In this document: one piece after another, positions 6,430-47,049 of the stretch | Layout: each line of letters starts with the position of its first letter | Numbering within the stretch: position 1 is the stretch's first letter | Source: Arcticibacter tournemirensis | GTDB lineage: Bacteria > Bacteroidota > Bacteroidia > Sphingobacteriales > Sphingobacteriaceae | Direction: 5' to 3' | DNA length: 64,000 nt | NCBI RefSeq assembly: GCF_006716645.1 | Contig: NZ_VFPL01000002.1 | Coordinates: 372,001-436,000 of the forward strand | Notes under the pieces: model-generated | Databases searched by the model: none | The model's input: the letters and a program-made list of their open reading frames with translations, nothing else | What the model was told of the DNA's origin: nothing | Translations under genes and position numbers: made by a program

Positions 6430-6555
6430 GGATGTGGGATACAGGATGTGTGTTGCGGGTTGTAGGAGGCTTGTTGCGGGTTGTATGTTGAAGGTTGTAA
6501 GATCGAGGTTGAAGGTTGTGCGTTAGGAATTATGGGTTATGGATTATGAGTTGAC
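6430..6555 (+). repeat. Degenerate heptanucleotide array R1 (18 units)
   Basis: Cutting the sequence every 7 bases from 6430 gives 18 consecutive units with no insertion or deletion. Most fit NGTTNNN: GGTTGTA occurs three times, TGTTGCG twice, GGATGTG twice, with relatives such as GGTTGAA and GGTTATG. The array lies between maeB and the bidirectional terminator. The units match those of array R2 beyond the barrel gene in opposite orientation. It holds no plausible ORF. Confidence 0.85.
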
Positions 6556-6605
6556 GTATATAGGGTAGTAAACAGGCAAAGGTCCGTTAAAAATAGCCAG
6601 ATATC

Positions 6606-6650
6606 ATATAAAGCAAAAAGGCTCCCTGGGGGAGCCTTTTTGCTTTATAT
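6606..6650. terminator. Strong bidirectional intrinsic terminator
   Basis: A perfect 21-base inverted repeat (6606-6626 with 6630-6650) and a three-base loop. The GC core GGCTCCC/GGGAGCC is flanked by A5 and T5 runs on the two sides, so it can terminate on either strand. It sits just downstream of the barrel-protein gene, which ends at 6670 on the minus strand. Confidence 0.9.
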
Positions 6651-6669
6651 GAATAATTCATTGTGTATC

Positions 6670-7266
6670 CTAGAATAGAAATCCTACAGATATCGAGAAC
6701 ACTTTATTCTTGGCTGTAACATCAGCAAGTTCAGACTCCTTCATAACATTAATAAGCCCAAGTCCATAATTGGCATTAAGCGTAAGGCCATTGCTAAACT
6801 CTAAGCCTCCAAGAAAATTAACGCCAAAATCTGCAGTATTAAAAGAAGACTCATCTTCATCCAGGCTCTCGCCGTCCAGCTTATATTTCTCAGAAAGCTT
6901 TACTCCTGCGTAAGGCCCGCCACCCAGAAATATTTTACCAAAGGAAACTGGAAACTTTGCCAATGCATTAACAGGAATATCAAGGTACATGACGTTGACC
7001 TCAGCTTCCTCTTCGCCAGAATCACTCTTAAATCCTTTTCCTGAAACGCCAATACCTGGTTGAATTGAGAAATTAGGAGAAACCCCATAATCTACAAAGC
7101 CATGAAAATGAAAGGAGGTGAGAGAAGATAGCGAAACGCTCATTCCGCTGCTGCTAAATGTTTGATTTGCAAAGTTAACACCGGCTTTTAATCCGTACTT
7201 AACTTCCTGTCCGAATACAGCTCCCATTACGAACAGCAAGGAGAGGCTTAGGAAAACTTTTTTCAT
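6670..7266 (-). CDS. Small outer-membrane beta-barrel protein
   Basis: A 198-residue porin-family barrel of the PF13568 type common in Bacteroidota; substrate or role unknown. Residues 1-20 are a clear signal peptide ending in VFGQE. The rest alternates polar and hydrophobic residues with recurrent GV/GL turns (YGLKAGVNFANQTF, FLGGGPYAGVKL, NANYGLGLI) and ends in the aromatic FSISVGFLF expected for BamA recognition. It is a single-gene unit: own promoter at 7285-7316 and strong terminator at 6606-6650, with heptad arrays outside on both sides in inverted orientation. Confidence 0.85.
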   Translation of the reverse strand: MKKVFLSLSLLFVMGAVFGQEVKYGLKAGVNFANQTFSSSGMSVSLSSLTSFHFHGFVDYGVSPNFSIQPGIGVSGKGFKSDSGEEEAEVNVMYLDIPVNALAKFPVSFGKIFLGGGPYAGVKLSEKYKLDGESLDEDESSFNTADFGVNFLGGLEFSNGLTLNANYGLGLINVMKESELADVTAKNKVFSISVGFLF

Positions 7267-7284
7267 ATTAATTTATATTTTCGT

Positions 7285-7316
7285 CAAATATAAATACTGT
7301 TCTCCTTATGCTACAA
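7285..7316 (-). promoter_or_regulatory. Predicted promoter of the barrel-protein gene
   Basis: Minus-strand -7 box TATATTTG (7292-7285), exact TAnnTTTG, with TTG (7316-7314) 21 bases upstream as the likely -33 element. It lies 18 bases before the ATG. Confidence 0.55.
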
Positions 7317-7403
7317 GATTTTTTTCAACGAACTGAGAAACTTTGCTTACATACAGGCTATATTCAACGATATAGGCAGAACAATACATTATGACGCTTA
7401 GCT

Positions 7404-7487
7404 TTAATTCATAACCCATAATTCATAACCCAGAACACTCAACTCTGAACCCACATCCCATAACCTGCAACCCGCAACCCATAACTC
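7404..7487 (-). repeat. Degenerate heptanucleotide array R2 (12 units), starting in the lutB stop codon
   Basis: Read on the minus strand from 7487, twelve perfect 7-base steps follow, nearly all GNGTTNN-like: GGGTTGC twice in succession, GGGTTAT twice, GAATTAT, GAGTTGA. The first unit, GAGTTAT, uses the GA of the lutB TGA stop codon. The array shares a 19-of-20 match with R1 (7405-7424 against 6527-6546, inverted). Confidence 0.85.
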
Positions 7488-8868
7488 ACCTCTTTCCTCT
7501 TCCTTCTTTCCACTGCTTGCTGAAGGACTTTTCGGCAACCTCAGGCATATCCCGGTATTTACCCCAGCTCTTTTTGAAAAAGGTTTTTAAGATGAGGTTT
7601 TTCATCTTACCCCCTACCATATCCATCCAGCTTCTTTTAAGCATGGCGCGCTTCCATCCTTTCCAACCAAGTGTTTCCGCTTTGGGACTAAGTCCCTCCT
7701 TCACAGCATCCCGGCGGTTCAGAAGAAGCATTTTATGAATATCTATTTTGACAGGGCAAACTTCGGTGCACTTTCCGCAAAGGCTTGAAGCGTAGCTAAG
7801 ATGTTTAAACTCCTCCATCCCTTTAAAATGGGGAGTAATAACAGAGCCTATTGGGCCGCTATAGGTAGTCTGATAGGTATGCCCTCCAACATTTTTATAA
7901 ACCGGGCAGGCATTCAAGCAGGCGCCGCAACGTATACAATACAAACCCTGCCGTTGCTCTTTGTGAGCTAAGAGCTCAGTCCGTCCGTTATCGAGCAAGA
8001 TCACATACATCTCTTCCGGGCCGTCTGTTTCACCTTCCTGCCGCGGTCCACCCAGTATGGTGTTATAAACAGTGAGATTCTGTCCCGTACCATGAGTCGA
8101 TAAAAGAGGAAGGAACAGGTCGAGGTCTGAAATAGAAGGAATGAGTTTTTCTATCCCCGCTATGGCAATATGTATCTTAGGGAACGTAGTTGAGAGCCTC
8201 GCGTTTCCTTCATTCTCTGTCAACGAAATACTTCCTGTATCGGCTATCAAAAAATTCGCACCAGTAATGCCTATATCTGCTGAGGTATATTTTTCACGCA
8301 GAAGTTCCCTGGCTTTAAGCGTAAGCTGCTCAGGAGTTGCATCAGGAGGCGTACCAAACTTCTCATGAAAAAGTTTTGCGATATCTTCCTTGCTAAGATG
8401 CATAGCAGGAGTAACAATATGGTATGGCTTCTGGCCAAGCAACTGAACGATATACTCGCCCAAATCACTTTCAATCGATTCAATGTGATGTTCTTCCAGA
8501 AATTCATTCAAATGAATTTCTTCTGTAGTCATCGATTTAGATTTTATAACCGTCTTTGCACCAGACCGGCGGACAATCTTTAAGATCTCTTCTGTAGCTT
8601 CTTCTGCATCATTGGCCCAGATAACCTTCCCGCCTCTTCTCTGAAAGTTTGCTTCAAATTCAGGCAGCAGCTTATCAAGGTTTTCCATCACCTTCCACTT
8701 GATCACATGCGCCTTCCTCTTCGATGCTTCAAGATTCACAAGCTTTGACAAACCCCTCTCAACCGCTGTATGATACCTTCCGATATTGAAATTAATGATA
8801 CGGCGATGATCCAGATCAAATGCTTTCTCCTCTGATGCTCCCTGAAAATCCTCAGCAAATTTTGTCAT
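7486..8868 (-). CDS. lutB: LutB-type iron-sulfur protein (lactate utilization)
   Basis: LutB is a subunit of the LutABC complex that oxidises L-lactate to pyruvate at the membrane. The 460-residue product has the LUD domain (about 60-300) and two iron-sulfur motifs: CIRCGACLNACP (Cys 311, 314, 317, 321) and CGKCTEVCP (Cys 364, 367, 371), the ferredoxin-like arrangement of the family. Length is normal. No lutA or lutC is adjacent; neighbours are a barrel protein and a peptidase. The stop codon overlaps the first unit of heptad array R2. The family call is firm; lactate as substrate is inferred from the family. Confidence 0.85.
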   Translation of the reverse strand: MTKFAEDFQGASEEKAFDLDHRRIINFNIGRYHTAVERGLSKLVNLEASKRKAHVIKWKVMENLDKLLPEFEANFQRRGGKVIWANDAEEATEEILKIVRRSGAKTVIKSKSMTTEEIHLNEFLEEHHIESIESDLGEYIVQLLGQKPYHIVTPAMHLSKEDIAKLFHEKFGTPPDATPEQLTLKARELLREKYTSADIGITGANFLIADTGSISLTENEGNARLSTTFPKIHIAIAGIEKLIPSISDLDLFLPLLSTHGTGQNLTVYNTILGGPRQEGETDGPEEMYVILLDNGRTELLAHKEQRQGLYCIRCGACLNACPVYKNVGGHTYQTTYSGPIGSVITPHFKGMEEFKHLSYASSLCGKCTEVCPVKIDIHKMLLLNRRDAVKEGLSPKAETLGWKGWKRAMLKRSWMDMVGGKMKNLILKTFFKKSWGKYRDMPEVAEKSFSKQWKEGRGKR

Positions 8869-8925: not shown

Positions 8926-8960
8926 TCCTCAACTGTCCGTTCTCAATTGTCAATTGTCAA
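8926..8960 (-). repeat. Degenerate heptanucleotide array R3 (5 clear units) over the M61 stop codon
   Basis: On the minus strand from 8960: TTGACAA twice, then TTGAGAA, CGGACAG and TTGAGGA in strict 7-base register, with two weaker units down to 8912. The first unit contains the TGA stop codon of the peptidase gene. The array occupies much of the 88-base gap before lutB. Confidence 0.75.
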
Positions 8961-10771
8961 AGCTTCAGCCACTTCTTCCTGACTGCCAGTTGCTCTGCTG
9001 TCGCATTCTTATCCGCTTCAATACGGAACTTGCCATTCGTATCAGGAGTCAACGTCAGCTCTATGGTTTTCAATAGACCATCCCGCGAAATAATAACGCT
9101 GATCTTATCGCCAACTTTTCCCGATGCAATGATCTTGTCAAGGTCGGTAGTACGTAAGGCATCAGTAGTGCCGTTAACCCGGTAGCCGTCAACCGCAATT
9201 ATTTCGTCATTTACACTCAGTCCGCCGATCCAGGCAGATCCTCCTCTTGTTACCGAACTCACTATTAACTTGCCCTCTTTTTGCGACGCAGTGATACCCA
9301 AAGAAGGCACATTGCTTCCCGCGTTCTCATTCACAAGACTTAAGCCGGCATGTCCGAGATGTACATTATAGTTAATAGGCGAAGTGCCATGTACATAATC
9401 CCTGTAAAAATTATCTAGAGAGATACCTGCTATTTTCTCGGCCATCGCTTTGAACTCGTCGCCAGTATAGCCCCTTTTTTGCCTGATATAGTATTCGTCG
9501 TACATAGCTTTCATAACATCGTCCAGGCCTTTAGCAGCTTTTGTCGCGTTCAATATCTCCAGGTCGAGTATCATGCCGAGCAGGGCCCCTTTATTATAGT
9601 ACGATATAGTAGAATTCCTTGAGTTCTCGTTGGGGCGGTAATACTTTATCCAGGCGTCGAAGCTTGATTCACTCACTGGCTGTATTTTACTCCCCGGCTG
9701 ATTCTCCACCACTTTAATATCTTCGCAAAGTACTTCCAGGTACTTTTCAGGAGAATAAAACTCCGCTCTCCGGAGCATAAGGTTATCGTAATAGGCAGTA
9801 AACCCTTCGGCAATCCACAGATCCGTAGTATAGTTCTCAGTGTCGTAGTCAAAAGGCCCTAAGGCCTGCGGACGCAGCCTCTTCACGTTCCAGAGGTGAA
9901 AATATTCGTGCGCTACCAAACCAAGAAAGCCCTTATAGCTCTTTTCTGATTTATATCCCAGACGTGAAGCGCCAAGAACAGTTGAATTAAGATGCTCTAA
10001 ACCACCTCCTCCATTCTGAAAATTATGAACAATAAAAACATACCGCTTATTCGGGTTTTCCTTAAAAATCTCAGTCTCCGTTTCGATGATTAAAGCCATG
10101 TCTGCCGACAATTTTTCCTTGTCGTAGTTACCTCCGCCATACATAGCCACTTCATGTTTCACCCCGGCAGCCTCAAACTCAAATACATCCTGATTGCCAA
10201 CTTCAATAGGAGAGTCGTACAGGACATCAAAATTTTCGGCGTAGAACGTATTCTTCTTTCCCTTTACCGCATCAAGACCGGTAGATATTTTTTTCCAGTC
10301 AACATGAGGATTAATGCTTACTGTTGCCGGCTGATTAATAAGCCCGTCAACATACATAAATATTCCTGTGGGCGACAAAAAGGCATGCGACTCATCAATA
10401 AAGCTCGTCCTTACCGATATTTCAAACGCATACACACGATACCCGGCTTTGATGCCCTCTTTACCCTTTGCGGCAATTCGCCATGTATTCTTATCAAGCT
10501 TCTGAACTTTCAGAGGAGCATTATCCGCCCCCTTAGCATAAAAGCCCTCTACGTTCTTTGCAAACTCCCTTACCAGATAAGACCCCGGAGCCCATACCGG
10601 CATTTTCAAATCAATAAAATCACTTTTATTACCAGAAATCTGCATTTCCACGTCGGCATAATGTGCCTGTGGCTCGGTAAAAGATATTTGAAAAGAGATT
10701 CCAGGTTGAGCGATCAACCCATTAAACGACGATATCATAAAAATCAAAGCAAAACAAAAGTACCTGTTCAT
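8957..10771 (-). CDS. M61-family metallopeptidase with PDZ domain
   Basis: Exported zinc peptidase of the M61 (glycyl aminopeptidase-like) family, 604 residues. The chosen ATG at 10771 begins a signal peptide (MNRYFCFALIFMISSF, cleaved near LIAQP). A frame extension to 10867 exists but is coded by heptad array R4 and would hide the signal peptide, so I reject it. The catalytic HEYFH lies at residues 288-292 with a downstream EGFTAYYDN block; a PDZ domain (about 515-580, GLSVNDEIIAVDGYRV) is near the C-terminus. A -7 box at 10781-10788 is very close to the start. Substrate unknown. Confidence 0.9.
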   Translation of the reverse strand: MNRYFCFALIFMISSFNGLIAQPGISFQISFTEPQAHYADVEMQISGNKSDFIDLKMPVWAPGSYLVREFAKNVEGFYAKGADNAPLKVQKLDKNTWRIAAKGKEGIKAGYRVYAFEISVRTSFIDESHAFLSPTGIFMYVDGLINQPATVSINPHVDWKKISTGLDAVKGKKNTFYAENFDVLYDSPIEVGNQDVFEFEAAGVKHEVAMYGGGNYDKEKLSADMALIIETETEIFKENPNKRYVFIVHNFQNGGGGLEHLNSTVLGASRLGYKSEKSYKGFLGLVAHEYFHLWNVKRLRPQALGPFDYDTENYTTDLWIAEGFTAYYDNLMLRRAEFYSPEKYLEVLCEDIKVVENQPGSKIQPVSESSFDAWIKYYRPNENSRNSTISYYNKGALLGMILDLEILNATKAAKGLDDVMKAMYDEYYIRQKRGYTGDEFKAMAEKIAGISLDNFYRDYVHGTSPINYNVHLGHAGLSLVNENAGSNVPSLGITASQKEGKLIVSSVTRGGSAWIGGLSVNDEIIAVDGYRVNGTTDALRTTDLDKIIASGKVGDKISVIISRDGLLKTIELTLTPDTNGKFRIEADKNATAEQLAVRKKWLKL

Positions 10772-10780
10772 AGTCTGCCG

Positions 10781-10788
10781 CAAAAGTA
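10781..10788 (-). promoter_or_regulatory. Candidate -7 box of the M61 peptidase gene
   Basis: TACTTTTG on the minus strand fits TAnnTTTG. No convincing -33 TTTG was found, and the box is only 9 bases from the ATG, so the leader would be very short. Tentative. Confidence 0.35.
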
Positions 10789-10810
10789 AATGAAAATGAT
10801 GATAAAAGCC

Positions 10811-10922
10811 GTTAGAAATCAGCAATCGGCTATTAGCTAAAAGAAACCAGGACTTAAAGAAGCCCATTACTGATTTCTGAATGCAGATGACAGAATACTG
10901 ACGACTGATTTCTGACAGCTAC
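10811..10922. repeat. Degenerate heptanucleotide array R4 (16 units, palindromic)
   Basis: Sixteen steps of exactly 7 bases from 10811. The left part has ATCAGCA, ATCGGCT and ATTAGCT; the right part has TTTCTGA (twice), TTACTGA, ATACTGA and CGACTGA, which are reverse complements of the same AGNNNTC-type words. The middle units (about 10839-10866) are weaker. The array separates the divergent M61 and efflux genes. Confidence 0.8.
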
Positions 10923-12148: not shown

Positions 12149-15100
12149 ATGAGTTTATCAACAACAAGTATAAAACGGCCGGTCCTTACAATCGTAATGA
12201 ACCTGATCCTGATCTTATTTGGGATTATTGGATATACTTTTTTGGGAGTACGGGAATACCCTTCCATCGATCCGGCGATTATATCAGTGCGTACCAGCTA
12301 TTCGGGAGCGAATCCTGATATAATTGAGTCGCAGATCACAGAACCACTCGAAAAATCGATCAATTCAATTGACGGAATACGAAATATCACCTCATCCAGT
12401 AATCAGGGATCAAGCAATATCAGCATTGAGTTTAACCTCGAAAAGAACCTTGAGGAAGCTGCAAATGATGTAAGGGATAAAGTATCGCAAGCAACCAGAA
12501 GTCTTCCGCAGGATATTGACGCGCCTCCTGTTGTTTCAAAAGCTGACGCCGACTCTGATCCCATTATGACAATGACCGTTCAGAGCAATAAACGGGACCA
12601 GCTTGCTTTGAGTGACTATGCGGAGAACGTCATATCTCAAAGGATCCAGACGATACCCGGTGTGAGCAGTGTGCAGATATGGGGACAAAAGAGATATGCC
12701 ATGCGGCTTTGGATCGACCCGATGAAGCTGGCGTCCTACGGACTTACAGTATCAGACATCAGGACTGCGCTGACACGGGAAAATGTGGAACTGCCTTCCG
12801 GCAAAGTAACGGGTGCGAATACCGAACTGAGCGTGAGAACCCTGGGGAATCTATCGAGCGCTGAACAGTTTAACAACCTTATAGTACGCACGCAGGGTGA
12901 CAAGATCATTCGTTTCAGCGACATCGGCCACGCCACGCTGGGACCTGAAAATCTGGAAACCCAGATGACCCAGTCGGGCGAACCAATGGTAGGCCTTGCC
13001 GTTATTCCGCAGCCGGGAACTAACTATCTTGAGATTGCTTCAGCTTTCAAAGAACGCTTTGAGCAATTAAAAAAAGAGCTGCCCGACGACATTAAGCTGG
13101 ATATAGCCATTGACAATACACTGTTCATCAAACAGTCGGTAACCGAAGTAGCAGAAACCATCCTGATAGCCCTGATACTCGTTATCCTCATCATTTACCT
13201 CTTCTTCCGCGACTGGGGCATCGCATTCAGGCCATTGATCGATATACCGGTGTCGCTTATCGCAACCTTCTTCATCATGTACCTGATGGGATTTTCAGTG
13301 AACGTGCTGACGCTGCTCGCCATCGTGCTGGCAACCGGACTGGTAGTTGACGACGGGATTGTGGTGACCGAGAATATCTTTAAAAAGGTAGAAGAGGGCA
13401 TGTCGCCCATAGAAGCGGCCATTAAGGGTTCCAATGAGATCTTCATGGCAGTAATCTCTATTTCCATCACGCTGGCAGCCGTATTCCTTCCGGTGATATT
13501 TCTTGAAGGCTTCGTAGGGCGACTGTTCCGCGAGTTTGGAGTAGTGATAGGAGCAGCGGTGCTGATATCGGCATTCGTTTCATTAACGCTGACACCGATG
13601 CTGAATGCCTATCTCATGAAGGGCGGGACGCATAAAAAATCAAGGTTCTACGAAATCACAGAACCTTATTTCGAAAAAATGAACAAGGGCTATGCCCGCG
13701 CCCTTGAAAAATTCATGAAAAGAAAATGGCTTAGCTTTCCTATTCTGTTAGGTTGCCTCGGCCTCATTGGCCTGTTCTACACAATCCTTCAGAAAGAAAC
13801 GGCGCCGTATGACGACAGGAGCTACTTAAGAACCGTTGTCAGCGCTCCCGAAGGCGCTTCGTTCGAGTATATGGACCGCTACATGAAGGAGCTGACTAAA
13901 CTCGTAAATGATTCTATACCCGAGAAAAGAATTAACCTCATAATGACGTCTCCTGGCTTCGGCTCGGCATCCGTCAATAGCGGCAGAATGCTGATAAGGC
14001 TTGTACAACCCGATGAACGCGAGATGTCGCAAAAGGATATTGCTCAAAAACTGACAAAAATGACCCGACGGTTTAGTGAAGGAAAAATCCTCGTCACACA
14101 GCAACCAACTATCTCGGTAAACCGGCGCGGGGGACTTCCGGTTCAGTTCATTATCCAGGCGCCCAACTTTCAAAAGCTAGAGCAGAAAGTGCCCCAATTT
14201 ATGGACGAGGTTTCTAAGGATCCAACATTTACAGTAAGTGATATCGACCTGAAGTTCAACCGGCCGGAAATAAATATATCCATTGACCGCGACAAAGCCC
14301 AAAGCCTGGGAGTGTCGGTTATCGATGTAGCTCAAACCCTGCAGCTGTCGCTTAGCGGTCAGAGGTTCGCCTACTTTATGATGAGCGGACGGCAATACCA
14401 GGTGATAGGCCAGTTCGATAAAGCCGACAGGGACGATCCGCTGGACCTTACTTCCATCTTCGTCAGAAGCAATACAGGCCAGCTCATCCAGCTGGACAAC
14501 CTGGTTACCATGAAAGAGCAGAGCAGCCCGCCACAGCTATATCATAATAACCGGTACCTATCTGCCACTGTTTCGGCCGGACTGGCGCCTGGTAAAAGTA
14601 TGGGCGACGGAATCGAAGCAATGGAAAGGATAGCTGATAAAGTTTTAGATGAAACCTTCTCAACGGATCTTGGCGGCGAATCACGCGACTTCGTTGAAAG
14701 TGGCTCCAATACAATGTTTGCATTCGGACTGGCGCTTCTGCTGATCTATCTTATTCTGGCAGCGCAGTTTGAAAGTTTCGTCGACCCACTCATCATCATA
14801 TTAACAGTTCCAATGGCTGTAGCAGGAGCGATGCTTTCTCTATGGCTCACCGGTCAGACATGGAATATATTCAGCCAGATAGGTACCATCATGCTCATTG
14901 GTTTAGTCACCAAGAATGGGATCCTGATCGTTGAATTTGCGAATAAGCTGCGCGAGCAAGGGAAACCAAAAATGACGGCTATTATCGAAGCAGCCGAAGC
15001 ACGGTTAAGGCCTATCCTGATGACAAGCCTTGCCATTGCATTAGGCGCATTACCCATTGCCCTTGCCCTTGGCGCCGCTGCGCAGAGCCGGATGGGAATG

Positions 15101-15250
15101 GGGATCGTGATTGTAGGAGGAACTATTTTCTCTCTCGTCCTTACATTATTTGTGATTCCCGCCATTTATGCCATGTGGTCAAGGAAACGTAAAACGAACC
15201 AAGAGCAGGAGAAAATAGAAGCATTTGAAAAATCAGAAGCAAGCTTCTGA
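12149..15250 (+). CDS. RND (HAE1-type) efflux pump permease
   Basis: Proton-driven inner-membrane multidrug exporter of the AcrB/MexB class, 1033 residues, normal length. The first transmembrane helix follows TTSIKRPVLTIVMNLILILF. The proton-relay aspartates are in LATGLVVDDGIVVTEN of TM4, and the TM10 lysine in IGLVTKNGILIVEFAN. Two large periplasmic loops follow TM1 and TM7. Gene order adaptor-permease-TolC supports a complete pump. A 13-bp hairpin (15227-15255) spans the stop codon, and heptad array R5 starts directly after it. Confidence 0.95.
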   Translation: MSLSTTSIKRPVLTIVMNLILILFGIIGYTFLGVREYPSIDPAIISVRTSYSGANPDIIESQITEPLEKSINSIDGIRNITSSSNQGSSNISIEFNLEKNLEEAANDVRDKVSQATRSLPQDIDAPPVVSKADADSDPIMTMTVQSNKRDQLALSDYAENVISQRIQTIPGVSSVQIWGQKRYAMRLWIDPMKLASYGLTVSDIRTALTRENVELPSGKVTGANTELSVRTLGNLSSAEQFNNLIVRTQGDKIIRFSDIGHATLGPENLETQMTQSGEPMVGLAVIPQPGTNYLEIASAFKERFEQLKKELPDDIKLDIAIDNTLFIKQSVTEVAETILIALILVILIIYLFFRDWGIAFRPLIDIPVSLIATFFIMYLMGFSVNVLTLLAIVLATGLVVDDGIVVTENIFKKVEEGMSPIEAAIKGSNEIFMAVISISITLAAVFLPVIFLEGFVGRLFREFGVVIGAAVLISAFVSLTLTPMLNAYLMKGGTHKKSRFYEITEPYFEKMNKGYARALEKFMKRKWLSFPILLGCLGLIGLFYTILQKETAPYDDRSYLRTVVSAPEGASFEYMDRYMKELTKLVNDSIPEKRINLIMTSPGFGSASVNSGRMLIRLVQPDEREMSQKDIAQKLTKMTRRFSEGKILVTQQPTISVNRRGGLPVQFIIQAPNFQKLEQKVPQFMDEVSKDPTFTVSDIDLKFNRPEINISIDRDKAQSLGVSVIDVAQTLQLSLSGQRFAYFMMSGRQYQVIGQFDKADRDDPLDLTSIFVRSNTGQLIQLDNLVTMKEQSSPPQLYHNNRYLSATVSAGLAPGKSMGDGIEAMERIADKVLDETFSTDLGGESRDFVESGSNTMFAFGLALLLIYLILAAQFESFVDPLIIILTVPMAVAGAMLSLWLTGQTWNIFSQIGTIMLIGLVTKNGILIVEFANKLREQGKPKMTAIIEAAEARLRPILMTSLAIALGALPIALALGAAAQSRMGMGIVIVGGTIFSLVLTLFVIPAIYAMWSRKRKTNQEQEKIEAFEKSEASF

Positions 15251-15255
15251 TTTTT
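15227..15255 (+). terminator. Hairpin spanning the RND permease stop codon
   Basis: A perfect 13-base inverted repeat (15227-15239 with 15243-15255), loop AAA, whose right arm contains the TGA stop and ends in T5. It could stop or attenuate transcription before tolC, or stabilise the mRNA end. There is little U-tract beyond the stem, so termination is uncertain. Confidence 0.5.
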
Positions 15256-15341
15256 GGCTGTTGGCGATTAGCTATTAGCAATTGGGTATTTAGGAACTGA
15301 ATGCTAATAGTCAATTACTAACAGCCAACAACTAGTACAAT
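15251..15341. repeat. Degenerate heptanucleotide array R5 (about 13 units, palindromic)
   Basis: Exact 7-base steps starting on the base after the permease stop codon. The left half has CTGTTGG, CGATTAG, CTATTAG and CAATTGG; the right half has AATGCTA, ATAGTCA, ATTACTA, ACAGCCA and ACAACTA, which pair with the left half as an imperfect hairpin. Register is kept through the reversal. Array words reappear inside the 5' end of tolC. Confidence 0.82.
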
Positions 15342-19440: not shown

Positions 19441-20706
19441 TTATATATTTAACAATTTATCTGATAGATCTACATACTGCTTTGTTACTGAAGCTTTAGT
19501 ATAGCAACCTTGAATTTCCCTGAACCCATTAGCCCCTAAAGTTATTAAATGGGACTTATCCTCATATGAGGATCTTAAGAAATAGACTATTGCAGAACAT
19601 TTTTCTTCCATTGAGCCCTCATTTACAAGGAATGCACAATTTACTAAATTTAGGAAGTTGAAAATTGGAGTATCTTTACCAGAAATAATCAATAAAGGCT
19701 TTGCACAGGCCATAATAGAATATACTTTAGAGGGGAAGCCTTGTCCTTCCATTTCAGGAGACATAAAGATAAAATGGATGTCTGCATAAGCTATTAAGGC
19801 GGGCATATATTCCCGCGGCTGATATGGAATAAGATGAATATTTAAAAGTTTATTCTCTAATATTTCTGATTGCAACTGGTTCTTCATAACCCCTTCTCCA
19901 ATAATCCAAAACTCAATTGGATCGCCAATAAGAAGTTTTGCAACTTCAATAAGCGGCTTCCAGTCTTGAGCATGCCCGATGTTTCCAGCATACATTACTT
20001 TTAAAATTCTTTCGTCCTGGGGAAATAAGTTTTTGTTTAAAAGGGACAAGCTACTCGATGGTAACGGCTTATATAAATCAACGTCTACGAAATTAGGGAT
20101 TATAACAAGCTTGGAAGGCTCTTTAAATCGTGGCGCTAGCGTGTTATAAAAGATTTTATCTATAGTAGTAACAGCATCCGAGTAATTGTAAACAAAACGC
20201 TCCAACTTTTTTAGAAGAGTTATAACCGGCTTAAGTTTTAGTTTGCTATAATTAATCAAGAGGTCAGGATATATCTCTTGAACATTATAAATAACCTTAG
20301 CTCCTTTAATTTTTCCAATAATTATGTTAACTGCTCCCAATGTTAAAGGAGGTGAAGGTGAAATAATAAGGCTGATATTGCTCTGTAGCAATCCCAGTAA
20401 AAGAGATAACGCGTGCCAATATGCAAAGCCTATTATTCTAAGCAGAGTATTGTTAAATTTCCTCTGTGGTACGTGAAGAACCTTTATACCTTTAAAATCA
20501 CTCTCATAGAATAGTCCAAACCATTTTTTAATAAGCGGTTGCTTTACCAACTCTTCCTTAACTAAATTATAGTGCGGTGTAGTTGTTAGCACGACCACCT
20601 CATAACCCGATTCGGCGAACCTTTCAGCTATATCATTATAAAGATACGCAGTTGACACCCCGTCTGGACTAAATACAAGACTGTGTATAAGAACTTTCTT
20701 TCTCAT
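19441..20706 (-). CDS. GT4 glycosyltransferase, WbuB-like (probable L-FucNAc transferase)
   Basis: Cytoplasmic or membrane-associated GT-B enzyme, 421 residues. N-terminal VLIHSLVFSPDGVSTAYLYNDIAERF is typical of the WbuB group; the donor-site region has YAGNIGHAQDW and the EX7E-like stretch SPEMEGQGFPSKVYSIMAC. It lies directly downstream of the three UDP-L-FucNAc genes (8-base gap), the position WbuB takes in known FucNAc-containing O-antigens. Transfer of L-FucNAc is inferred from that context. Confidence 0.8.
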   Translation of the reverse strand: MRKKVLIHSLVFSPDGVSTAYLYNDIAERFAESGYEVVVLTTTPHYNLVKEELVKQPLIKKWFGLFYESDFKGIKVLHVPQRKFNNTLLRIIGFAYWHALSLLLGLLQSNISLIISPSPPLTLGAVNIIIGKIKGAKVIYNVQEIYPDLLINYSKLKLKPVITLLKKLERFVYNYSDAVTTIDKIFYNTLAPRFKEPSKLVIIPNFVDVDLYKPLPSSSLSLLNKNLFPQDERILKVMYAGNIGHAQDWKPLIEVAKLLIGDPIEFWIIGEGVMKNQLQSEILENKLLNIHLIPYQPREYMPALIAYADIHFIFMSPEMEGQGFPSKVYSIMACAKPLLIISGKDTPIFNFLNLVNCAFLVNEGSMEEKCSAIVYFLRSSYEDKSHLITLGANGFREIQGCYTKASVTKQYVDLSDKLLNI

Positions 20707-20714
20707 CCTATTCT

Positions 20715-21848: not shown

Positions 21849-21878
21849 ATTCGGTACATTACTGTTCTCTATTCAACA

Positions 21879-22997: not shown

Positions 22998-23030
22998 GAT
23001 TATATCAAATTAACATCAGTCATCATTATA

Positions 23031-23468
23031 CTATTTATGCCAGTCAAACCACATATTTTCATCAAATTTATAGTTATCATTCCCAGATTGTTCCAATGTG
23101 AAATCAGAAAAAACAATCATTTTCGAATTAGCTGCAGTCGCTTTCAATCCATTGGCATATCCACCAGGCACATAAAGGACCCGACTCTCTTCACTCGACA
23201 AGGTATATTCCATTACATCTAGAGCAGGAGAAGGCTGGTCCCAGTTATCTGGTCTTGTCAGAACAATTTTAAAACTCCCAGCCAACACATAAAACCACTT
23301 TTGCTCTCGCTTGTGACCCTGCCACGCACGGACAACAAAAGGATCGCTGTGTTCAATAATATAGAATCTTTTCACCTCATCAATGTGAAAATCGTTAACG
23401 AACCACAGGGTGCCCCTGCTGTCAGAATGCGAACCTCCATCTATAATTTGGGGATACATTAACTTCAT
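23031..23468 (-). CDS. RmlC/WxcM-like cupin, putative sugar epimerase or isomerase
   Basis: A 145-residue cupin with DSRGTLWFVNDF, RAWQGHKREQKWFYVLAGSF and the pocket strand RVLYVPGGYANGL, resembling dTDP-4-dehydrorhamnose 3,5-epimerase and FdtA/WxcM ketoisomerases. It overlaps the CapE-like stop by one base (TAATG), so it is translationally coupled, and sits between the first and second enzymes of FucNAc synthesis. CapF already has its own cupin, so this one may act on a different 4-keto intermediate. Exact reaction unknown. Confidence 0.7.
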   Translation of the reverse strand: MKLMYPQIIDGGSHSDSRGTLWFVNDFHIDEVKRFYIIEHSDPFVVRAWQGHKREQKWFYVLAGSFKIVLTRPDNWDQPSPALDVMEYTLSSEESRVLYVPGGYANGLKATAANSKMIVFSDFTLEQSGNDNYKFDENMWFDWHK

Positions 23469-24508: not shown

Positions 24509-24532
24509 ATTATTTTAATTGAAGTCTATCTC

Positions 24533-28125: not shown

Positions 28126-28204
28126 ATTGATATAGAGGCTAATGGATATGCCGATATTCTTTTCAAGATACAAATCTATTGTTCCCTGTGACGCTGAATC
28201 ACAG

Positions 28205-29266: not shown

Positions 29267-29324
29267 TATTAAATTTATTGTATTACATTACATTTGATCA
29301 GAGGTATTTAACAACCGAGCAATC

Positions 29325-33633: not shown

Positions 33634-33640
33634 TTTAACT

Positions 33641-34639
33641 CTAAATATTATATATATCTGTCTTATACTGCCTCAAGTTTTCATCAACCTTAAACCATTC
33701 TATGGTTTCAAGCAAACCTTTCGACAACGTATATAATGGCTTCCAGTTGGTATTATCTACAATATTCTTATTTGAACCATAAAGCCTAAACACCTCCGAT
33801 TTCTCCGGTCTACTTCTTTGTATATCAGTGATTATTCTTGCATCCGGATTAATTTGTAAAATGATTTTATCGGCTAAATCACCAATAGAAATTTCTGACT
33901 CAGTGGCAATATTGCAGTCACGCCCTATTAAACCAGCCGACTTGGCAATCTCAACAAAACCAGATACAGTATCTTTGACGAACAATAAATCTCTTGTCGG
34001 GTTTAAGTCACCTAACTTAATTTCAGTCTTCCCACTTAATAACTGCGTGATAATAGTAGGTATTACAGCTCGCGCTGACTGGCGAGGTCCGTATGTATTA
34101 AAAGGTCTTACTATAGTAACGGGCAAGTCAAAGCTACGATAAAAAGACTCGGCGAGACAATCTGCTGCAATTTTTGAGGCAGAATAAGGGGATTGAGCTT
34201 GTCTAGGGTGTCTCTCGTCTATTGGAACATAGCAAGCTGTACCATAAACCTCAGACGTTGATGTTACTATAACTCTTTCGACGTTAAGCTCTCTAGAAGC
34301 TTGAAGTATATTTAACGTTCCCTTTACATTAGTGTCAATGTATGAGTCAGGGGAATGATAGCTAAAAGGAATAGCAATCAAGGCAGCGAGATGAAACACA
34401 ACGTCAACATCTTTAACTGCCCTTCTCACCCCATTAGGATCACGAATATCTCCAGCAAATATTTCCATTTGATCTGTAGACTTTTTCGATAAAGAGTCTA
34501 GCCATCCCCAACTATTAAAAGAATTGTAATATACAAACGCCTTAACAAAAGCGCCTTCTTGAAGTAAACCTTCAACCAAATGGCTTCCAATGAACCCATC
34601 AGCGCCCGTTACCAATACTCTCTTCCCTTTTAGTTCCAT
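33641..34639 (-). CDS. LegB-like NAD-dependent 4,6-dehydratase
   Basis: Extended SDR, 332 residues, converting an NDP-HexNAc to its 4-keto-6-deoxy form. VLVTGADGFIGSHLVEGLL binds NAD; STSEVYGTA and YSASKIAAD hold the catalytic Thr/Ser, Tyr and Lys; FNTYGPRQSARAVIPTIITQ lines the sugar site. The long match to the LegB group (NSFNSWGWLDS, LGDLNPTRDLLFV) is stronger than to RmlB or GalE. With the PtmE-like, DegT and NeuD-like genes it could make a GDP- or UDP-linked diamino sugar. It overlaps wzz by one base. Confidence 0.87.
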   Translation of the reverse strand: MELKGKRVLVTGADGFIGSHLVEGLLQEGAFVKAFVYYNSFNSWGWLDSLSKKSTDQMEIFAGDIRDPNGVRRAVKDVDVVFHLAALIAIPFSYHSPDSYIDTNVKGTLNILQASRELNVERVIVTSTSEVYGTACYVPIDERHPRQAQSPYSASKIAADCLAESFYRSFDLPVTIVRPFNTYGPRQSARAVIPTIITQLLSGKTEIKLGDLNPTRDLLFVKDTVSGFVEIAKSAGLIGRDCNIATESEISIGDLADKIILQINPDARIITDIQRSRPEKSEVFRLYGSNKNIVDNTNWKPLYTLSKGLLETIEWFKVDENLRQYKTDIYNI

Positions 34640-38459: not shown

Positions 38460-38635
38460 AACCCAGACAAGTGCCTGACCAAACCCTGATCTTGTCAGCA
38501 TCTCATTAGACTCTCGTCAGCATCATGTCAGACTCTCGTCAGACTTTAGTCTGACATGATGCTGACGAGATGCTGAGATTATGCTGACGAGATGCGGCAT
38601 TGGTAAGGGTTTTATCAGGCACTCGTCAGAGATTA
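38460..38635. repeat. 11-base degenerate array R7, palindromic
   Basis: Ten clear 11-base units from 38493 to 38602 with no indel: five of the CGTCAGNNTCT type, then five of the reverse-complement type (ATGCTGACGAG twice). The reversal gives a perfect 22-base inverted repeat (38513-38534 with 38548-38569, 13-base loop). Weaker units extend the same register and pairing outward, e.g. AACCC-GA at 38460 and 38482, and GTGCCTGA paired with TCAGGCAC. The octamer CTCGTCAG or its complement occurs five times. Confidence 0.85.
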
Positions 38636-39682: not shown

Positions 39683-40597
39683 ATGGCAAGAACAACATAT
39701 CAGGACTTACTTGATGCAGGTGTACATTTTGGTCACCTTACCCGTAAATGGGATCCGAAAATGTCGCAGTACATTTTCATGGAACGTAATGGTATCCACA
39801 TTATAGATTTAAATAAAACCTTAACCAAGCTCGAAGAGGCTTCGGCAGCAATCAAACAGATCGTTAAATCTGGCCGTAAAGTATTATTCGTTGCTACTAA
39901 AAAACAGGCTAAGGATATAGTTGCCGAGCAGGCAAAATCAGTTAACATGCCTTTCGTAACCGAACGCTGGTTAGGTGGGATGTTAACCAACTTCGCTACT
40001 GTACGTAAGTCGATCAAGAAGATGTCTAACATCGACAAGATGACTAAAGACGGTACTTACGATGTTCTTTCAAAGAAAGAAAAGCTGATGATTCAGCGTG
40101 AACGTATTAAGCTTGAAACCCTTTTAGGTGGTATTTCTGACCTTAACCGTTTACCTGCAGCGCTTTTCCTTATTGATGTTAAGAAAGAACACATTGCTGT
40201 TACTGAAGCTCTGAAGTTAAACATCCCTACCTTTGCAATGGTAGATACTAACTCAGATCCTTCAAGCATCGATTTCCCGATCCCGGCAAATGATGATGCT
40301 ACTAAATCAATTTCCCTGATCACTGATATTATTATCAAAGCGATCCAGGAAGGTTTAGACGAACGCAAACGTGAGAAAGAAGACGAAGCTGAAAAAGAAG
40401 CTGCTGCTGCTAAAGCTAAAATAGATAGTGGTGAAGCTGCTAAAGAAGAAGCTGCTGCTCCTCGTCGCGAGAGAGTGGTAACTGCTGCTACAGCTGAGCC
40501 TGCTGCTGAAACTGCTGCCGCTGAAACGGCTACAGCTGAAGCTGAAGCTCCTTCGGAAGCTGCTGCTGATCAGCCAAAGAGCGAAAGCGCTGAATAA
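39683..40597 (+). CDS. rpsB: 30S ribosomal protein S2 with long acidic C-terminal tail
   Basis: 304 residues. The S2 body (about 1-230) is standard: YQDLLDAGVHFGHLTRKWDPKM, KKQAKDIVAEQAKSV, RWLGGMLTNFATVRKSI and AMVDTNSDPSSIDFPIPANDDA. The last 70 or so residues are a low-complexity tail of Ala, Glu and Thr that E. coli S2 lacks; such tails are seen in other Bacteroidota. A full Shine-Dalgarno site precedes it. Heptad array R8 begins 5 bases after the stop codon. Confidence 0.97.
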   Translation: MARTTYQDLLDAGVHFGHLTRKWDPKMSQYIFMERNGIHIIDLNKTLTKLEEASAAIKQIVKSGRKVLFVATKKQAKDIVAEQAKSVNMPFVTERWLGGMLTNFATVRKSIKKMSNIDKMTKDGTYDVLSKKEKLMIQRERIKLETLLGGISDLNRLPAALFLIDVKKEHIAVTEALKLNIPTFAMVDTNSDPSSIDFPIPANDDATKSISLITDIIIKAIQEGLDERKREKEDEAEKEAAAAKAKIDSGEAAKEEAAAPRRERVVTAATAEPAAETAAAETATAEAEAPSEAAADQPKSESAE

Positions 40598-40602: not shown

Positions 40603-40665
40603 GCTGTGGGTTGCGGGTTGCGCGTTGTGGGCCTCCCGCAACTTACAACCTGCAACCCACAACTT
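40603..40665. repeat. Degenerate heptanucleotide array R8 (9 units, palindromic)
   Basis: Nine exact 7-base steps between rpsB and tsf: four units of the GTTGCGG type, then five of its complement (GCAACTT, ACAACCT, GCAACCC, ACAACTT and the junction GCCTCCC). Together they fold into a long imperfect hairpin followed by TTTT. The words are those of R1 and R2, 33 kb away. Confidence 0.85.
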
Positions 40666-41536: not shown

Positions 41537-41592
41537 TCGAGTTGAAGGTTGAAAGTTTAAGGTTCAAAGCCTAAAGTTGAACGACTGGCTTA
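41537..41592 (+). repeat. Degenerate heptanucleotide array R9a, starting at the tsf stop codon
   Basis: From the first base after TAG: TCGAGTT, GAAGGTT, GAAAGTT, TAAGGTT, CAAAGCC, TAAAGTT, GAACGAC, then a weak unit, all in 7-base register. Complementary words recur in R9b beyond the terminator. Confidence 0.82.
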
Positions 41593-41649: not shown

Positions 41650-41685
41650 GCGTCGTTCTTTCCTTAAAGAGCGCATGGTCCTTGC

Positions 41686-41713
41686 TTTCAACTTTAAACT
41701 CTCGACTTTCAAC
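41686..41713 (-). repeat. Degenerate heptanucleotide array R9b (4 units)
   Basis: TTTCAAC, TTTAAAC, TCTCGAC, TTTCAAC in register. Read on the minus strand the units are GTTGAAA-type, the same words as R9a, so the two arrays flank the terminator in inverted orientation. Confidence 0.75.
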
Positions 41714-41722
41714 TAAAAATTG

Positions 41723-41730: not shown

Positions 41731-41803
41731 CCCGGCATCTAAAGCCACTCTTCTATTAAGTTCAAATGGATCAAATACAAAAAAATATTAAAAGTAAACT
41801 GAT

Positions 41804-41838
41804 CTCAAATCTCATTTCTCATTTCTTAAATCTCGTAT
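41804..41838 (+). repeat. Degenerate heptanucleotide array R9c touching the pyrH start codon
   Basis: CTCAAAT, CTCATTT twice, CTTAAAT, CTCGTAT in 7-base register; the last unit contains the A and T of the pyrH ATG (41837). In this place a pyrimidine-rich unit sits where a ribosome binding site is normally found. Confidence 0.7.
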
Positions 41839-45021: not shown

Positions 45022-45056
45022 GGTTGTCAGCTGTCAGAAATCAGCAATCAGATTTG
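45022..45056 (+). repeat. Degenerate heptanucleotide array R10a (5 units)
   Basis: GGTTGTC, AGCTGTC, AGAAATC, AGCAATC, AGATTTG in exact register, starting directly after the 15-bp hairpin. AGAAATC and AGCAATC are also adjacent in array R4, 34 kb away. Confidence 0.75.
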
Positions 45057-45077
45057 ACTGGCATGAAATGGTGAACG

Positions 45078-45112
45078 CAATTAGCTGGCAGAGATTAGCA
45101 ATCAGCTTTAGC
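45078..45112 (+). repeat. Degenerate heptanucleotide array R10b (5 units)
   Basis: CAATTAG, CTGGCAG, AGATTAG, CAATCAG, CTTTAGC. Same vocabulary as R10a but shifted: the two AGCAATC copies are 54 bases apart, not a multiple of 7, so an unrelated 21-base stretch interrupts the array. Confidence 0.65.
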
Positions 45113-45162
45113 TAGCGTTAAATAGTGAAAAAAGTTTTTCTATATTTATAAAAAAACCAACA

Positions 45163-45387
45163 ATGAACACATTACTATTCCTTAACATCGGAGCATCAGA
45201 ACTTTTAATAGTCGCTTTATTGCCGCTGATCCTTATGATTTTTTGCCTTGTGGATGTCTTACGCTCAGATTTCAAAGATCGTAGCATAAAACCTTTATGG
45301 TGCCTTGTAATAATATTAGCGCCTTTTTTCGGATCCCTTATCTACCTATTGGCAGTGAGAAACCAGAAGATTCAATACCATCGTTAG
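45163..45387 (+). CDS. Small PLDc_N-domain membrane protein
   Basis: 74 residues, two predicted helices: SELLIVALLPLILMIFCLVDVL and PLWCLVIILAPFFGSLIYLL, separated by a short charged loop with the DxLRSDF pattern of the PLDc_N family (PF13396), here without any phospholipase domain. The function of such stand-alone proteins is unknown. ATG start after an A-rich leader with TATATTTA, a near -7 box. Followed by 235 bases with no recognised feature. Confidence 0.75.
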   Translation: MNTLLFLNIGASELLIVALLPLILMIFCLVDVLRSDFKDRSIKPLWCLVIILAPFFGSLIYLLAVRNQKIQYHR

Positions 45388-45622
45388 CCGCAGGTTACTC
45401 CATGGTTTTAGCATACTACTAGTGTTATGTTAAGTCAAACATGACTTGTTTCTTACTATCGGTCGTTATGCTTTAAGCTTAGTACTTATTACGTATAAAT
45501 TAACACTAGACCAATTGCCTTAGGGGGTAAAAGTGTTACACTTTATTGCCAGAAAGGCTTCAGTTTGATACAGAAGCCAGCTTAAGGGCAAGCCTAATGG
45601 CCGGCCACTGACTACATTCTTG

Positions 45623-46894
45623 TTATTTTTCGTGGATCTCCTTCAACCCCAACGGTACCAGAGCCTTCGTTTTCAGATACGTTAAGCTCACTACTATAAG
45701 CGTCATGGTTCCTCCAAAAATTACGGCAGGAACAGTCCCCATTAGCTTAGCTGTGAGCCCGGATTCGAATGCCCCGATTTCATTGGAAGAGCCTATAAAC
45801 ATAGAGTTCACCGCTGAAACCCGGCCACGCATATCGTCGGGAGTTAGCAGCTGCATAATGGTGGAGCGGATCACCACGCTTACACTATCGAACACTCCTT
45901 CAAAGAAGAGGAATATTAAAGTAAGATAAAAGCTGGTAGACAGTCCGTAACAAATGATGGAAACGCCGAAGCCGGTGACGGCAATTAAAAGGTTCCGCCA
46001 GGGTTTATTCATAGGGGAATGGCGGGCCATAATCAACATCGTAATTACTGCACCAACGGCTGGTGCCGCACGCATAAGTCCGAACTGCTCTGCTCCTACG
46101 TGCAGCACCTCACTGGCAATTACCGGGATCAGGGCAACGGCCCCTCCGAAAAACACGGAGAACATGTCGAGACTCATCGCGCCGAGCATCATCCTGTTAC
46201 TGAACACAAATTTTATACCCACCGAAAGGTTCTGAAATATATTTTCCCGGGGGACGAACTGCGGCGGCATCTTCCTTAGAAAAAAAAGACAGCTGAAAGC
46301 TGCAATCATAAACACTAGTATAATTAGGAAAGTTAGCGAAACACCCCCATACGCGTAAATCAGTCCCCCTGCTGCCGGTCCGGCGATGGAAGCAACCTGA
46401 TAGCCGGTACTGTTCCAGGTAGAGGAATTGGGATAGTGCTCGCGTGGAACCACCTGTGCCATGATCGAAAACGTGGCAGGCCCCATAAAACCGCGACAGA
46501 TACCTATACAGAAAATCATGACGTATACAATTCCGACAATATGCCCGGCTCCCAGTTTAGCGGTCAATGCCGGAAGAGTTATGAGGTATAAGATGGCAGA
46601 ACAGGTGAACATGCCGCCAATAATGATCTTAAGTAAGCCGGTCTTCTCCGATTTGTCAGCTACATAACCTCCATAGAGTGCAATGCCGATAGCTGGAATA
46701 GCCTCCGAAAGACCAATCATGCCAAGGGAAAGGGGATCTTTCGTCAAATGATAGATATACCACCCAATTACCACCGCCTGAATCTGATAACCAAATGTCA
46801 GGAAAAACCTCATTATTAAATAAGCACGGAATTCGGGAAACCGCAGAGCGGCATAAGCATCTTTTCGGGGAGGCTGTGAACTATCTGTATCCAT
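45623..46894 (-). CDS. MFS transporter (EntS/MFS_3-like)
   Basis: 423 residues, 12 membrane helices. N-terminal ALRFPEFRAYLIMRFFLTFGYQ and the loop-2 motif YGGYVADKSEKTGLLK fit the MFS_3 group that includes siderophore exporter EntS; the second half has LTPDDMRGRVSAVNSMFIGSSNEIG (residues about 350-374), typical of that group. Substrate unknown. Single gene with its own -7 box (46947-46954); array R11 lies between that box and recG. Confidence 0.87.
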   Translation of the reverse strand: MDTDSSQPPRKDAYAALRFPEFRAYLIMRFFLTFGYQIQAVVIGWYIYHLTKDPLSLGMIGLSEAIPAIGIALYGGYVADKSEKTGLLKIIIGGMFTCSAILYLITLPALTAKLGAGHIVGIVYVMIFCIGICRGFMGPATFSIMAQVVPREHYPNSSTWNSTGYQVASIAGPAAGGLIYAYGGVSLTFLIILVFMIAAFSCLFFLRKMPPQFVPRENIFQNLSVGIKFVFSNRMMLGAMSLDMFSVFFGGAVALIPVIASEVLHVGAEQFGLMRAAPAVGAVITMLIMARHSPMNKPWRNLLIAVTGFGVSIICYGLSTSFYLTLIFLFFEGVFDSVSVVIRSTIMQLLTPDDMRGRVSAVNSMFIGSSNEIGAFESGLTAKLMGTVPAVIFGGTMTLIVVSLTYLKTKALVPLGLKEIHEK

Positions 46895-46946
46895 TTTATT
46901 AGTAGCTATAGGCAGTCGGGTGTCGGCAAAAAGCTTTCAGAATGAA

Positions 46947-46954
46947 CAAATATA
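46947..46954 (-). promoter_or_regulatory. Candidate -7 box of the MFS gene
   Basis: TATATTTG on the minus strand, exact TAnnTTTG; no TTTG at the expected -33 distance, which falls in heptad array R11. Confidence 0.45.
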
Positions 46955-46965
46955 CATAATCCATC

Positions 46966-47049
46966 TTGATTCCTGTATTCTGATACCTGTATCTTGGTAC
47001 TTGATTCCTGTATCTTGATTCTTGATACTAGACACTTGATACTATCCTC
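46966..47049 (-). repeat. Degenerate heptanucleotide array R11 (12 units), starting in the recG stop codon
   Basis: Twelve consecutive 7-base units without indel, read here on the plus strand: TTGATTC three times, TTGATAC twice, CTGTATC twice, and CTGTATT, CTGATAC, TTGGTAC, TAGACAC, TATCCTC. Positions 2-3 and 7 are the most constant. In recG sense the first unit is GAGGATA, whose GA belongs to the TGA stop codon (47048-47050). Confidence 0.88.

Follow-up and report, generated by a model that had tools for sequence, protein, structure and literature searches.

Degenerate heptad arrays in the window

The stretch analysed here, called the window throughout, comprises 64,000 nucleotides of the Arcticibacter tournemirensis genome (G000; two contigs, 5.66 Mb) at C2:372001-436000. 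Its intergenic regions, including those around tsf and downstream of recG, contain arrays of degenerate seven-nucleotide units (heptads) that follow one another in register. A preliminary description of the sequence had listed 12 such sites, numbered between R1 and R11, and reading them directly confirms the 7-base register. We scored arrays by the marginal likelihood of a 7-column array of at least four units with a threshold of 7 nats, which 11 of the 12 sites exceed and R10b does not reach. The claim that up to 18 units occur without an insertion or deletion holds for R1, the longest array. Tandem Repeats Finder caught only portions of some arrays because their units are too dissimilar. The arrays are listed below with their scan scores in nats.

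R1, 6428..6553: 18 heptads with GTTGCGG, GTTGTAG and GTTATGG words, read directly and found by the scan (54.7)
R2, 7402..7485: 12 heptads with CATAACC and GCAACCC words, touching the stop codon of the minus-strand open reading frame (ORF) 7486-8868 (42.3)
R3, 8929..8956: four TCAATTG heptads, touching the stop codon of the minus-strand ORF 8957-10867 (9.8)
R4, 10868..10916: seven heptads of TACTGA type, read directly and found by the scan (21.4)
R5, 15254..15337: inverted arms of six TTGGCTA and five GCTAATA heptads, 3 bp past the stop codon of ORF 12149-15250 (14.4 and 9.5)
R8, 40605..40661, plus strand: rpsB-tsf hairpin whose arms are GTTG and CAAC heptads (16.0)
R9a, 41540..41581: six GTTGAAA heptads, 3 bp past the tsf stop codon (18.1)
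R9b, 41685..41719: five TTTCAAC heptads, an inverted match of R9a beyond a terminator-like stem seen by eye (13.1)
R9c, 41802..41836: five heptads with CTCATTT and CTCAAAT words, immediately upstream of the ORF start at 41837 (14.6)
R10a and R10b, 45023..45105: five heptads (11.6) and four heptads (6.6)
R11, 46964..47040: 11 TTGATAC heptads, 7 bp past the recG stop codon (37.7)

Three weaker arrays at 19292, 45466 and 63907 (8.7-10.0 nats), absent from the earlier list, also exceed the threshold. By eye, R1 is the inverted partner of R2 across ORF 6670-7266; the orthologous region of the close relative G001 lacks the R1 array. The spacer holding R3 measures 88 bp in G000 versus 15-46 bp in G001, G003 and G005. 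R4 may reach back to 10811, since relatives match the ORF there only from residue 13-27 onward. The ORF at 41837 belongs to the amino acid kinase family and is assigned as pyrH from gene order. The tsf-pyrH spacer is 300 nt long in G000, 475 nt in G001 and 138-151 nt in G002, G003 and G005, the extra sequence of G000 including the three R9 arrays; the R9c word family also occurs at the corresponding place in G001. Promoter and terminator labels at R9 refer to what we take to be such motifs, spotted by eye. Rfam 15 at the gathering score gave no match in the window, the relatives' loci lying outside this search.

Autocorrelation of the intergenic DNA of the window (30 regions, 4,012 nt) against 100 dinucleotide shuffles gives z values of 8.6, 7.4, 6.2 and 3.8 at lags 7, 14, 21 and 28, and z ≤ 2.2 at lags other than multiples of 7; identity at lag 7 is 0.330 versus 0.275 in shuffled sequence. 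In a 400-kb sample of the same genome, 3 of whose 20 stretches had been picked near GTTGCGG matches, intergenic z values are 10.0, 8.1 and 4.6 at lags 7, 14 and 21, and the coding DNA displays 3-periodicity only. The period of seven thus exceeds shuffled controls in both the window and the genome samples, which confirms the preliminary observation. Further support comes from 29 stretches of G000 that were not picked for repeats (580 kb, 302 intergenic regions; hereafter unchosen), in which 45 period-7 arrays were observed versus 2.0 after shuffling. They occupy 32 of the 302 intergenic regions and 4.8% of intergenic bases. Observed and shuffled counts for other periods in these stretches are 4 and 2.5 (period 6), 4 and 2.0 (period 8), 9 and 0.5 (period 11) and 20 and 0.5 (period 14, a harmonic). 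The 12 chosen stretches, window included, contain 65 period-7 arrays versus 0.5, and array density in the window is above the genome average.

Like simple sequence repeats and short tandemly repeated repetitive sequences, the arrays of G000 are tandem 7-nt intergenic units beyond chance. They lack the near-identical units of that class, the mean deviation from the column majority being 0.24 over 122 arrays of at least six units pooled from four genomes. Period 11 is the sole clear excess besides 7 and 14 in the unchosen stretches of G000; the window itself has two facing 11/22-bp repeat blocks at 38490-38595, TCTCGTCAGCATCACATCAGAC and a GATGCTGACGA type.

Polarity and paired arms at gene junctions

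The arrays have a characteristic position and strand asymmetry. In chosen and unchosen stretches combined, the distance to an ORF edge is 0-4 bp for 59 of the 128 arrays; the ORF set used for the statistics consists of greedy longest ORFs without a gene finder, and distances to start codons are therefore approximate. Read outward from the gene, edge arrays carry more G than C, by 30:10 where the edge is 3' and by 11:1 where it is 5' (unchosen stretches, summed). The same holds for single arrays, with 21:10 and 7:1 in the unchosen and 19:3 and 7:2 in the chosen stretches, while array-free edges have little skew in most groups (maximum 0.17, at 5' edges of G061). Where a region contains at least two arrays, the leftmost is richer in G (42:5) and the rightmost richer in C (43:7), so that the 5' arm is G-rich on either strand. 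Of 49 array pairs within one region, 12 match when one member is inverted and 5 match directly, compared with 4% of pairs across regions. In 23 of 50 regions the outer arms, folded as RNA, pair better than 95% of arms taken from other regions; compared with arms of permuted unit order, the own arms pair better in 19 regions (z < -1) and worse in 5 (z > 1).

One junction that can be compared across species lies outside the window, in the spacer between rplP and rpmC, whose products L16 and L29 were confirmed by family. We obtained this locus from 16 of 20 genomes of genus g37 and applied an array threshold of 6. In 15 of the 16 the spacer measures 71-169 nt and contains at least one scan-detected heptad array; in G084 it is 40 nt long. 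The words belong to several families (GTTATAA/TTACAAC, TTAGTNN/CTAACNN, TTATACG/ACGTAAA and TTTCAAC). Heptads are also present here in five g1 species and in G006, G011 and G017, so that a spacer built of 7-nt units is found in 23 of 33 readable species from five genera (the G001 spacer reads N and is outside the 33). The lag-7 z is 21.1 for the 15 g37 species, 10.9 for the five g1 species and 10.1 for the three others. Two species of genus g15, G104 and G019 (L376, L377), have 8-nt units instead, with a lag-8 identity of 0.53 (z 7.2); stretches elsewhere in g15 yield 8 octad arrays versus 2 and 10 period-7 arrays versus 1. Among the remaining species, stems of another kind are predicted in G020, G021 and G008 (z -1.7 to -3.6), the spacers of G016 and G012 are 25 and 20 nt long, and those of G007 and G018 contain no clear repeat.

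Predicted folding of the rplP-rpmC spacer is unusually good (z ≤ -2.8) in 12 of the 15 g37 species and ranges from z -1.5 to -6.3 in the other eight heptad spacers. With the spacer split at a fixed midpoint, the own arms of the 23 species pair at -22.5 kcal/mol compared with -16.3 kcal/mol for arms swapped between species, and none of 20,000 permutations is as low, in a scheme that takes no account of kinship among the species. The own arms beat the row median in 21 of the 23. When the split is chosen by energy, the left arm has more G than C in all 23 and the right arm is C-rich in 22, the last being even.

A second such junction is R8 itself. We searched 201 family genomes with the pattern TGTGGGTTG-N15..45-CAACCCACA and found it in nine, belonging to genera g1, g6, g13 and g37; 9 of the 10 loci adjoin tsf. 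In an alignment of 11 sequences (the nine next to tsf, plus G041 and G093 chosen by eye from 19 g37 loci), 89.5% of cells pair versus 85.9% after shuffling (0/500), and 7 of 27 pairs have changed on both sides versus 3.1 (2/500 as high). Eight of the 27 pairs are invariant; the constancy of the outer nine is due in part to the search pattern, which demanded them. Sliding the 3' side by 1-3 columns lowers pairing to 34-47%, and the fold z is -5.0 to -12.5 in the 7 of the 11 loci that were folded. The 3' flank of R8 reads ACTTTTATA.

In many other g37 genomes (L279, L282-L293, upstream of tsf) the rpsB-tsf spacer has differing palindromes by eye, CCCTCTCC..GGAGAGGG and GCGATTCGTTCGC-like, as if the site called for some hairpin.

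Turnover of units and words among relatives

The ribosomal protein junctions allow arrays to be followed between species. The rpsC-rplP spacer of g37 is empty (38-43 nt) in 8 of 16 species and filled (88-157 nt) in the other 8, and it is empty in six g1 species. Seven of the eight filled spacers have a scan-detected array, four of them in both arms, and that of G113 stays below threshold. In three the fold is unusually good (G119 z -3.1, G061 -4.6, G139 -5.0). The two forms can be found in very close species: the spacer is 38 nt long in G124 versus 119 nt in G129, between flanks that are 98.3% and 97.6% identical. A single copy of CGTACAA, the word of G061 and G139, is present in the empty spacers of G124 and G041; these two related cases suggest that arrays start from local sequence.

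At rplP-rpmC the same pair, G124 and G129, is 97.5% identical in rplP and 99.5% in rpmC (next 200 nt), while the spacer is 65% identical and aligns in register. By eye, several units differ in a complementary manner and in phase, TAAGT versus TTAGT on the left and ACTTA versus ACTAA on the right. Each of the two genomes contains both words (1 and 7 matches to the TTAGT pattern, 62 and 23 to the TAAGT pattern), and the difference may come from recombination import. The corresponding spacers of G061 and G139 (86 and 88 nt) are nearly alike in left arm and loop; in G139 the right arm has been homogenised, its word being TTTCAAC, and the predicted stability is -16.4 versus -23.6 in G061. Both comparisons together indicate that units are replaced in register and that the replacement is at times confined to one arm. 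At the R11 site three species have three word families, namely TTGATAC in G000, inverted GTTGCGG/GTTGAAA arms in G004 and GCTATTA in G001.

The preliminary description further gave each locus its own word family. Words do vary by locus but they are not private, as 39 pairs of similar words were found across regions of G000 versus 4.4 expected, and G000 and G061 share 48 close word pairs versus 13.9. Sharing with other Bacteroidota was rejected: the mean similarity of G000 words is slightly raised (z 5.8 against column-permuted words), close matches show no excess (17 versus 19.6), and G061 has neither signal.

How units arise can be approached from their likeness within arrays. Adjacent and lag-2 units are more alike than permuted units in G000 (z 2.4 and 5.0), G004 (1.8 and 3.3), G061 (5.0 and 3.3) and G139 (1.9 and 2.3), and the relatives G061 and G104, from other genera of the family, contain near-perfect arrays, among them alternating GATTACC/GATTACT of at least 30 units and TCACAAC in a 14-unit array. 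Both observations point to tandem duplication at work, and the earlier argument that unit variability excludes slippage is therefore not supported; degeneracy may reflect age. Star-like decay is rejected by a column-variance test, the same test leaving selection and slippage unseparated. Variable columns cluster (neighbour correlation -0.079 versus -0.165, z 2.9), which weakly favours a unit of core plus spacer.

The distribution of arrays is wide and patchy. Among the EF-Ts matches listed for G000, the best are a Bacteroidetes metagenome-assembled genome and an uncultured Mucilaginibacter (84%), followed by Pedobacter and Sphingobacterium species (81%), which suggests a place in or near the Sphingobacteriaceae. 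The two closest relatives have a lag-7 excess, G004 with z 6.4 and G001 a weak one with z 2.6 (25-80 kb samples). Small samples of 10-40 kb from 19 genomes in other genera give an excess in G012 (z 3.6) and G017 (z 2.7). The pattern (GTTGNRR)3GTTG is spread very unevenly: 32 of the 151 family genomes contain it, representing 12 of 25 genera, with 826 overlapping matches in G004, 130 in G000, 119 in G104 and none in G001; the reversed-pattern control is not independent for GTTGNRR. Unchosen stretches contain 36 period-7 arrays versus 0.5 shuffled in G061 (15 stretches, another genus), 9 versus 0.5 in G139 (4 stretches) and 2 versus 0.5 in G104 (2 stretches). In tsf-region contigs of other Bacteroidota we counted 60 arrays of period 7 versus 4 in one shuffle and 12 versus 10 of period 6.

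Possible hairpins or neutral repeats, and known heptamers

Based on these data we tentatively read the arrays as arms, or remnants of arms, of gene-junction hairpins, and this may well be what they are: units born by duplication would be kept where paired arms form a hairpin. Tandem duplication acting locally on 7 or 14 nt would create and spread units; a matched two-arm junction could then be retained because its transcript folds, protecting, attenuating or insulating the flanking messages, and single or decayed arrays would be by-products. Single arrays may thus be neutral. The polarity of the arms, the persistence at rplP-rpmC and the covariation give weight to the hairpin. Of the two origins offered in the preliminary description, selected phase or a dedicated copying process, the first agrees with a phase far from chance and with arm matching kept amid word change at R8 and rplP-rpmC, which fits selection on RNA structure without proving it. 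One idea is that a G-first arm might sequester the emerging C-rich arm and thereby avoid Rho.

Several observations weigh against hairpins as the common basis of the arrays. Regions with several arrays number about 18 versus 59 with a single one (unchosen G000, G004, G061 and G139). Five of the eight filled rpsC-rplP spacers fold no better than usual (z -0.3 to -1.8), and since these are the majority, neutrality stays a strong rival. Even at rplP-rpmC some folds are weak (G167 z -0.8, G139 and G134 -2.0, G004 -1.5). R9a and R9b flank a terminator-like stem on opposite sides by eye, so a terminated transcript would carry one arm only. No T-run is enriched after the last array (mean 3.08 T in 10 nt), and on this ground a reading as intrinsic terminators was rejected. 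G002, G003 and G005, of the same genus, have no lag-7 excess in samples of about 80 kb. Moreover, the other Bacteroidota contigs have an excess of period 8 (33 versus 5), which together with the g15 octads means that seven is not an absolute unit length. The single arrays, the weak rpsC-rplP folds, the arrangement at R9 and the homogenised arm of G139 give weight to neutral change.

Neutral repeats are a possible, though less likely, alternative. Replication would add or remove 7-nt steps in unconstrained gaps, and fold-back template switching would copy arm to arm, with no selection. The likeness of neighbouring units, the near-perfect arrays of G061 and G104, the presence or absence of an array in species as close as G124 and G129, and the ordinary rpsC-rplP folds all agree with such a process. 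So does R9, whose arrays, placed between seemingly functional elements, make the spacer longer than in relatives without arrays. Simulated neutral slippage gives a column heterogeneity of 1.03 at the observed divergence versus 1.31 observed, thus producing most of it, and much of the pattern needs no selection. Neutral change does not by itself predict that paired arms have a single polarity (42:5), that five genera keep a heptad spacer at rplP-rpmC or that R8 has more both-side changes than shuffles, and the homogenised single arm of G139 argues against routine copying between arms.

It is improbable that the arrays are mobile or cassette-like elements in which a dedicated enzyme moves or exchanges paired heptad units between loci. 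The recurrence of word families within one genome (the 39 versus 4.4 pairs) would fit, as would the G124/G129 difference in both rplP-rpmC arms next to an almost identical rpmC in genomes that hold both words, and the different palindromes seen by eye at rpsB-tsf in many g37 genomes. On the other hand, the 65% in-register alignment of these spacers is compatible with change in place, and the single CGTACAA copies in empty G124 and G041 spacers suggest local birth. The one candidate for a copying enzyme, the Y1/RAYT transposase (Y1_Tnp, PF01797), was found in 4 of 12 genomes searched (G139, G104, G136 and G074) and gave no match in G000, G001, G004 and G061. Mobility of the repetitive extragenic palindrome type (bacterial interspersed mosaic elements) with RAYT is rejected, as the transposase is absent from G000, G001, G004 and G061.

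Binding sites for a protein or regulator reading 7-nt phased DNA or RNA are very improbable: the register without indels and the slight clustering of variable columns (z 2.9) would suit them, and S1, Csp or Csr proteins are named as candidates for the TAACTGA repeats discussed below (PMC4679880), but words are not the same from locus to locus, nor from species to species at one locus, which together with the 8-nt units of two g15 species at rplP-rpmC means that no fixed site is shared.

A G-quadruplex reading was likewise rejected, as on inspection TTGATAC, GTTGAAA, TAAGTNN and TTAGTNN lack a fixed G-tract; GGG is present in R1 and R8.

Prokaryotic heptamer repeats have reportedly been treated by Mrazek in 2007. 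The closest known system is the GGGAATC/GGGANTN repeat of Xanthomonas, with intergenic heterogeneous 7-nt units of unknown function (Rehm et al. 2015, PMC4692102). These lie on the coding strand up to 50 bp downstream of stop codons and on the non-coding strand upstream of start codons; convergent (inverted) pairs number 70 in Xcc and 75 in Xac, and the repeats are under-represented between divergent genes. G000 and Xanthomonas share the gene-edge position, the outward G-rich strand and the convergent pairs, which are a bias here. Xanthomonas has one word family with G-quadruplex capacity, whereas G000 has many families, several without G-tracts. Unlike in the Xanthomonas account, as far as its sections used here extend, words in G000 and its relatives change between species at one junction with arm matching kept.

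Within Bacteroidetes the statement that variable heptamers had no account in the phylum was mistaken. MacGregor (2015, PMC4679880) reports direct TAACTGA repeats, intergenic and near start codons, in Beggiatoaceae, cyanobacteria and five Bacteroidetes; in the latter other heptamer repeats adjoin them, and some relatives have shorter, repeat-free spacers. In contrast to G000, TAACTGA is one near-invariant word, related heptamers being rare in the main genome studied, and arm pairing and word turnover are features of G000 outside the parts of that account drawn on here. One AGTTATC unit (the TAACTGA complement, rotated) lies in an array at L024 7569, where no search was aimed at TAACTGA. Heptamer tandem repeats are the most abundant intergenic repeats in prokaryotes according to the SPADE paper (PMC6344855), with which the arrays described here share the period, the genomic place and the wide taxonomic range; that paper counts tandem repeats, and its portions used here do not extend to degenerate arrays or hairpin geometry. 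In Clostridium, operon-internal stem-loops set transcript stoichiometry through selective RNA processing and stabilization (SRPS; PMC4423207, PMC8219983). A hairpin at an operon junction could similarly set relative mRNA levels; phased 7-nt units are a G000 feature that the SRPS excerpts do not mention.

Xanthomonas is thus already known to combine a 7-nt period with a position at gene edges, a strand rule and inverted pairing (PMC4692102, in the sections used here), and heptamers have been published for Bacteroidetes (likewise PMC4679880). As far as the open-licence literature shows, what is new is a strand rule that holds for many different words, the in-phase replacement of words at a given junction whose arms stay matched, and species that use octads. 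Among the papers listed from that literature none describes degenerate, word-changing heptad hairpins in this family, which is weak evidence of absence in print. Here heptamers can be traced between species at fixed junctions of a ribosomal protein operon, in empty and filled forms and with about 98% flank identity. Together with the two sister-genus species that use 8 nt, such comparisons open the polarity, the hairpin's role and the source of the period to direct tests. A broader view, which we consider unlikely, is that of a family-wide junction RNA class defined by grammar, in which unit length (7, or 8 in one genus), phase, G-first polarity and arm complementarity would be inherited while words turn over in phase; this class would also take in the heptamers of Xanthomonas, Beggiatoaceae and cyanobacteria. 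If true, there is a class of RNA elements that sequence-based searches miss.

Some further observations concern neighbouring genes. The rpsB ORF (S2, 39683-40597) has about 80 C-terminal residues that do not align to relatives, and a 15-bp repeat at 40500-40544. About a dozen ORFs at 19441-34639, mostly without close counterparts in the relatives' syntenic regions, adjoin a polysaccharide-export-like gene at 35750 and are perhaps a strain-specific exopolysaccharide cluster. In G012 (C1:1514895-1516981) RecG was matched as two overlapping pieces, as if split by a frameshift.

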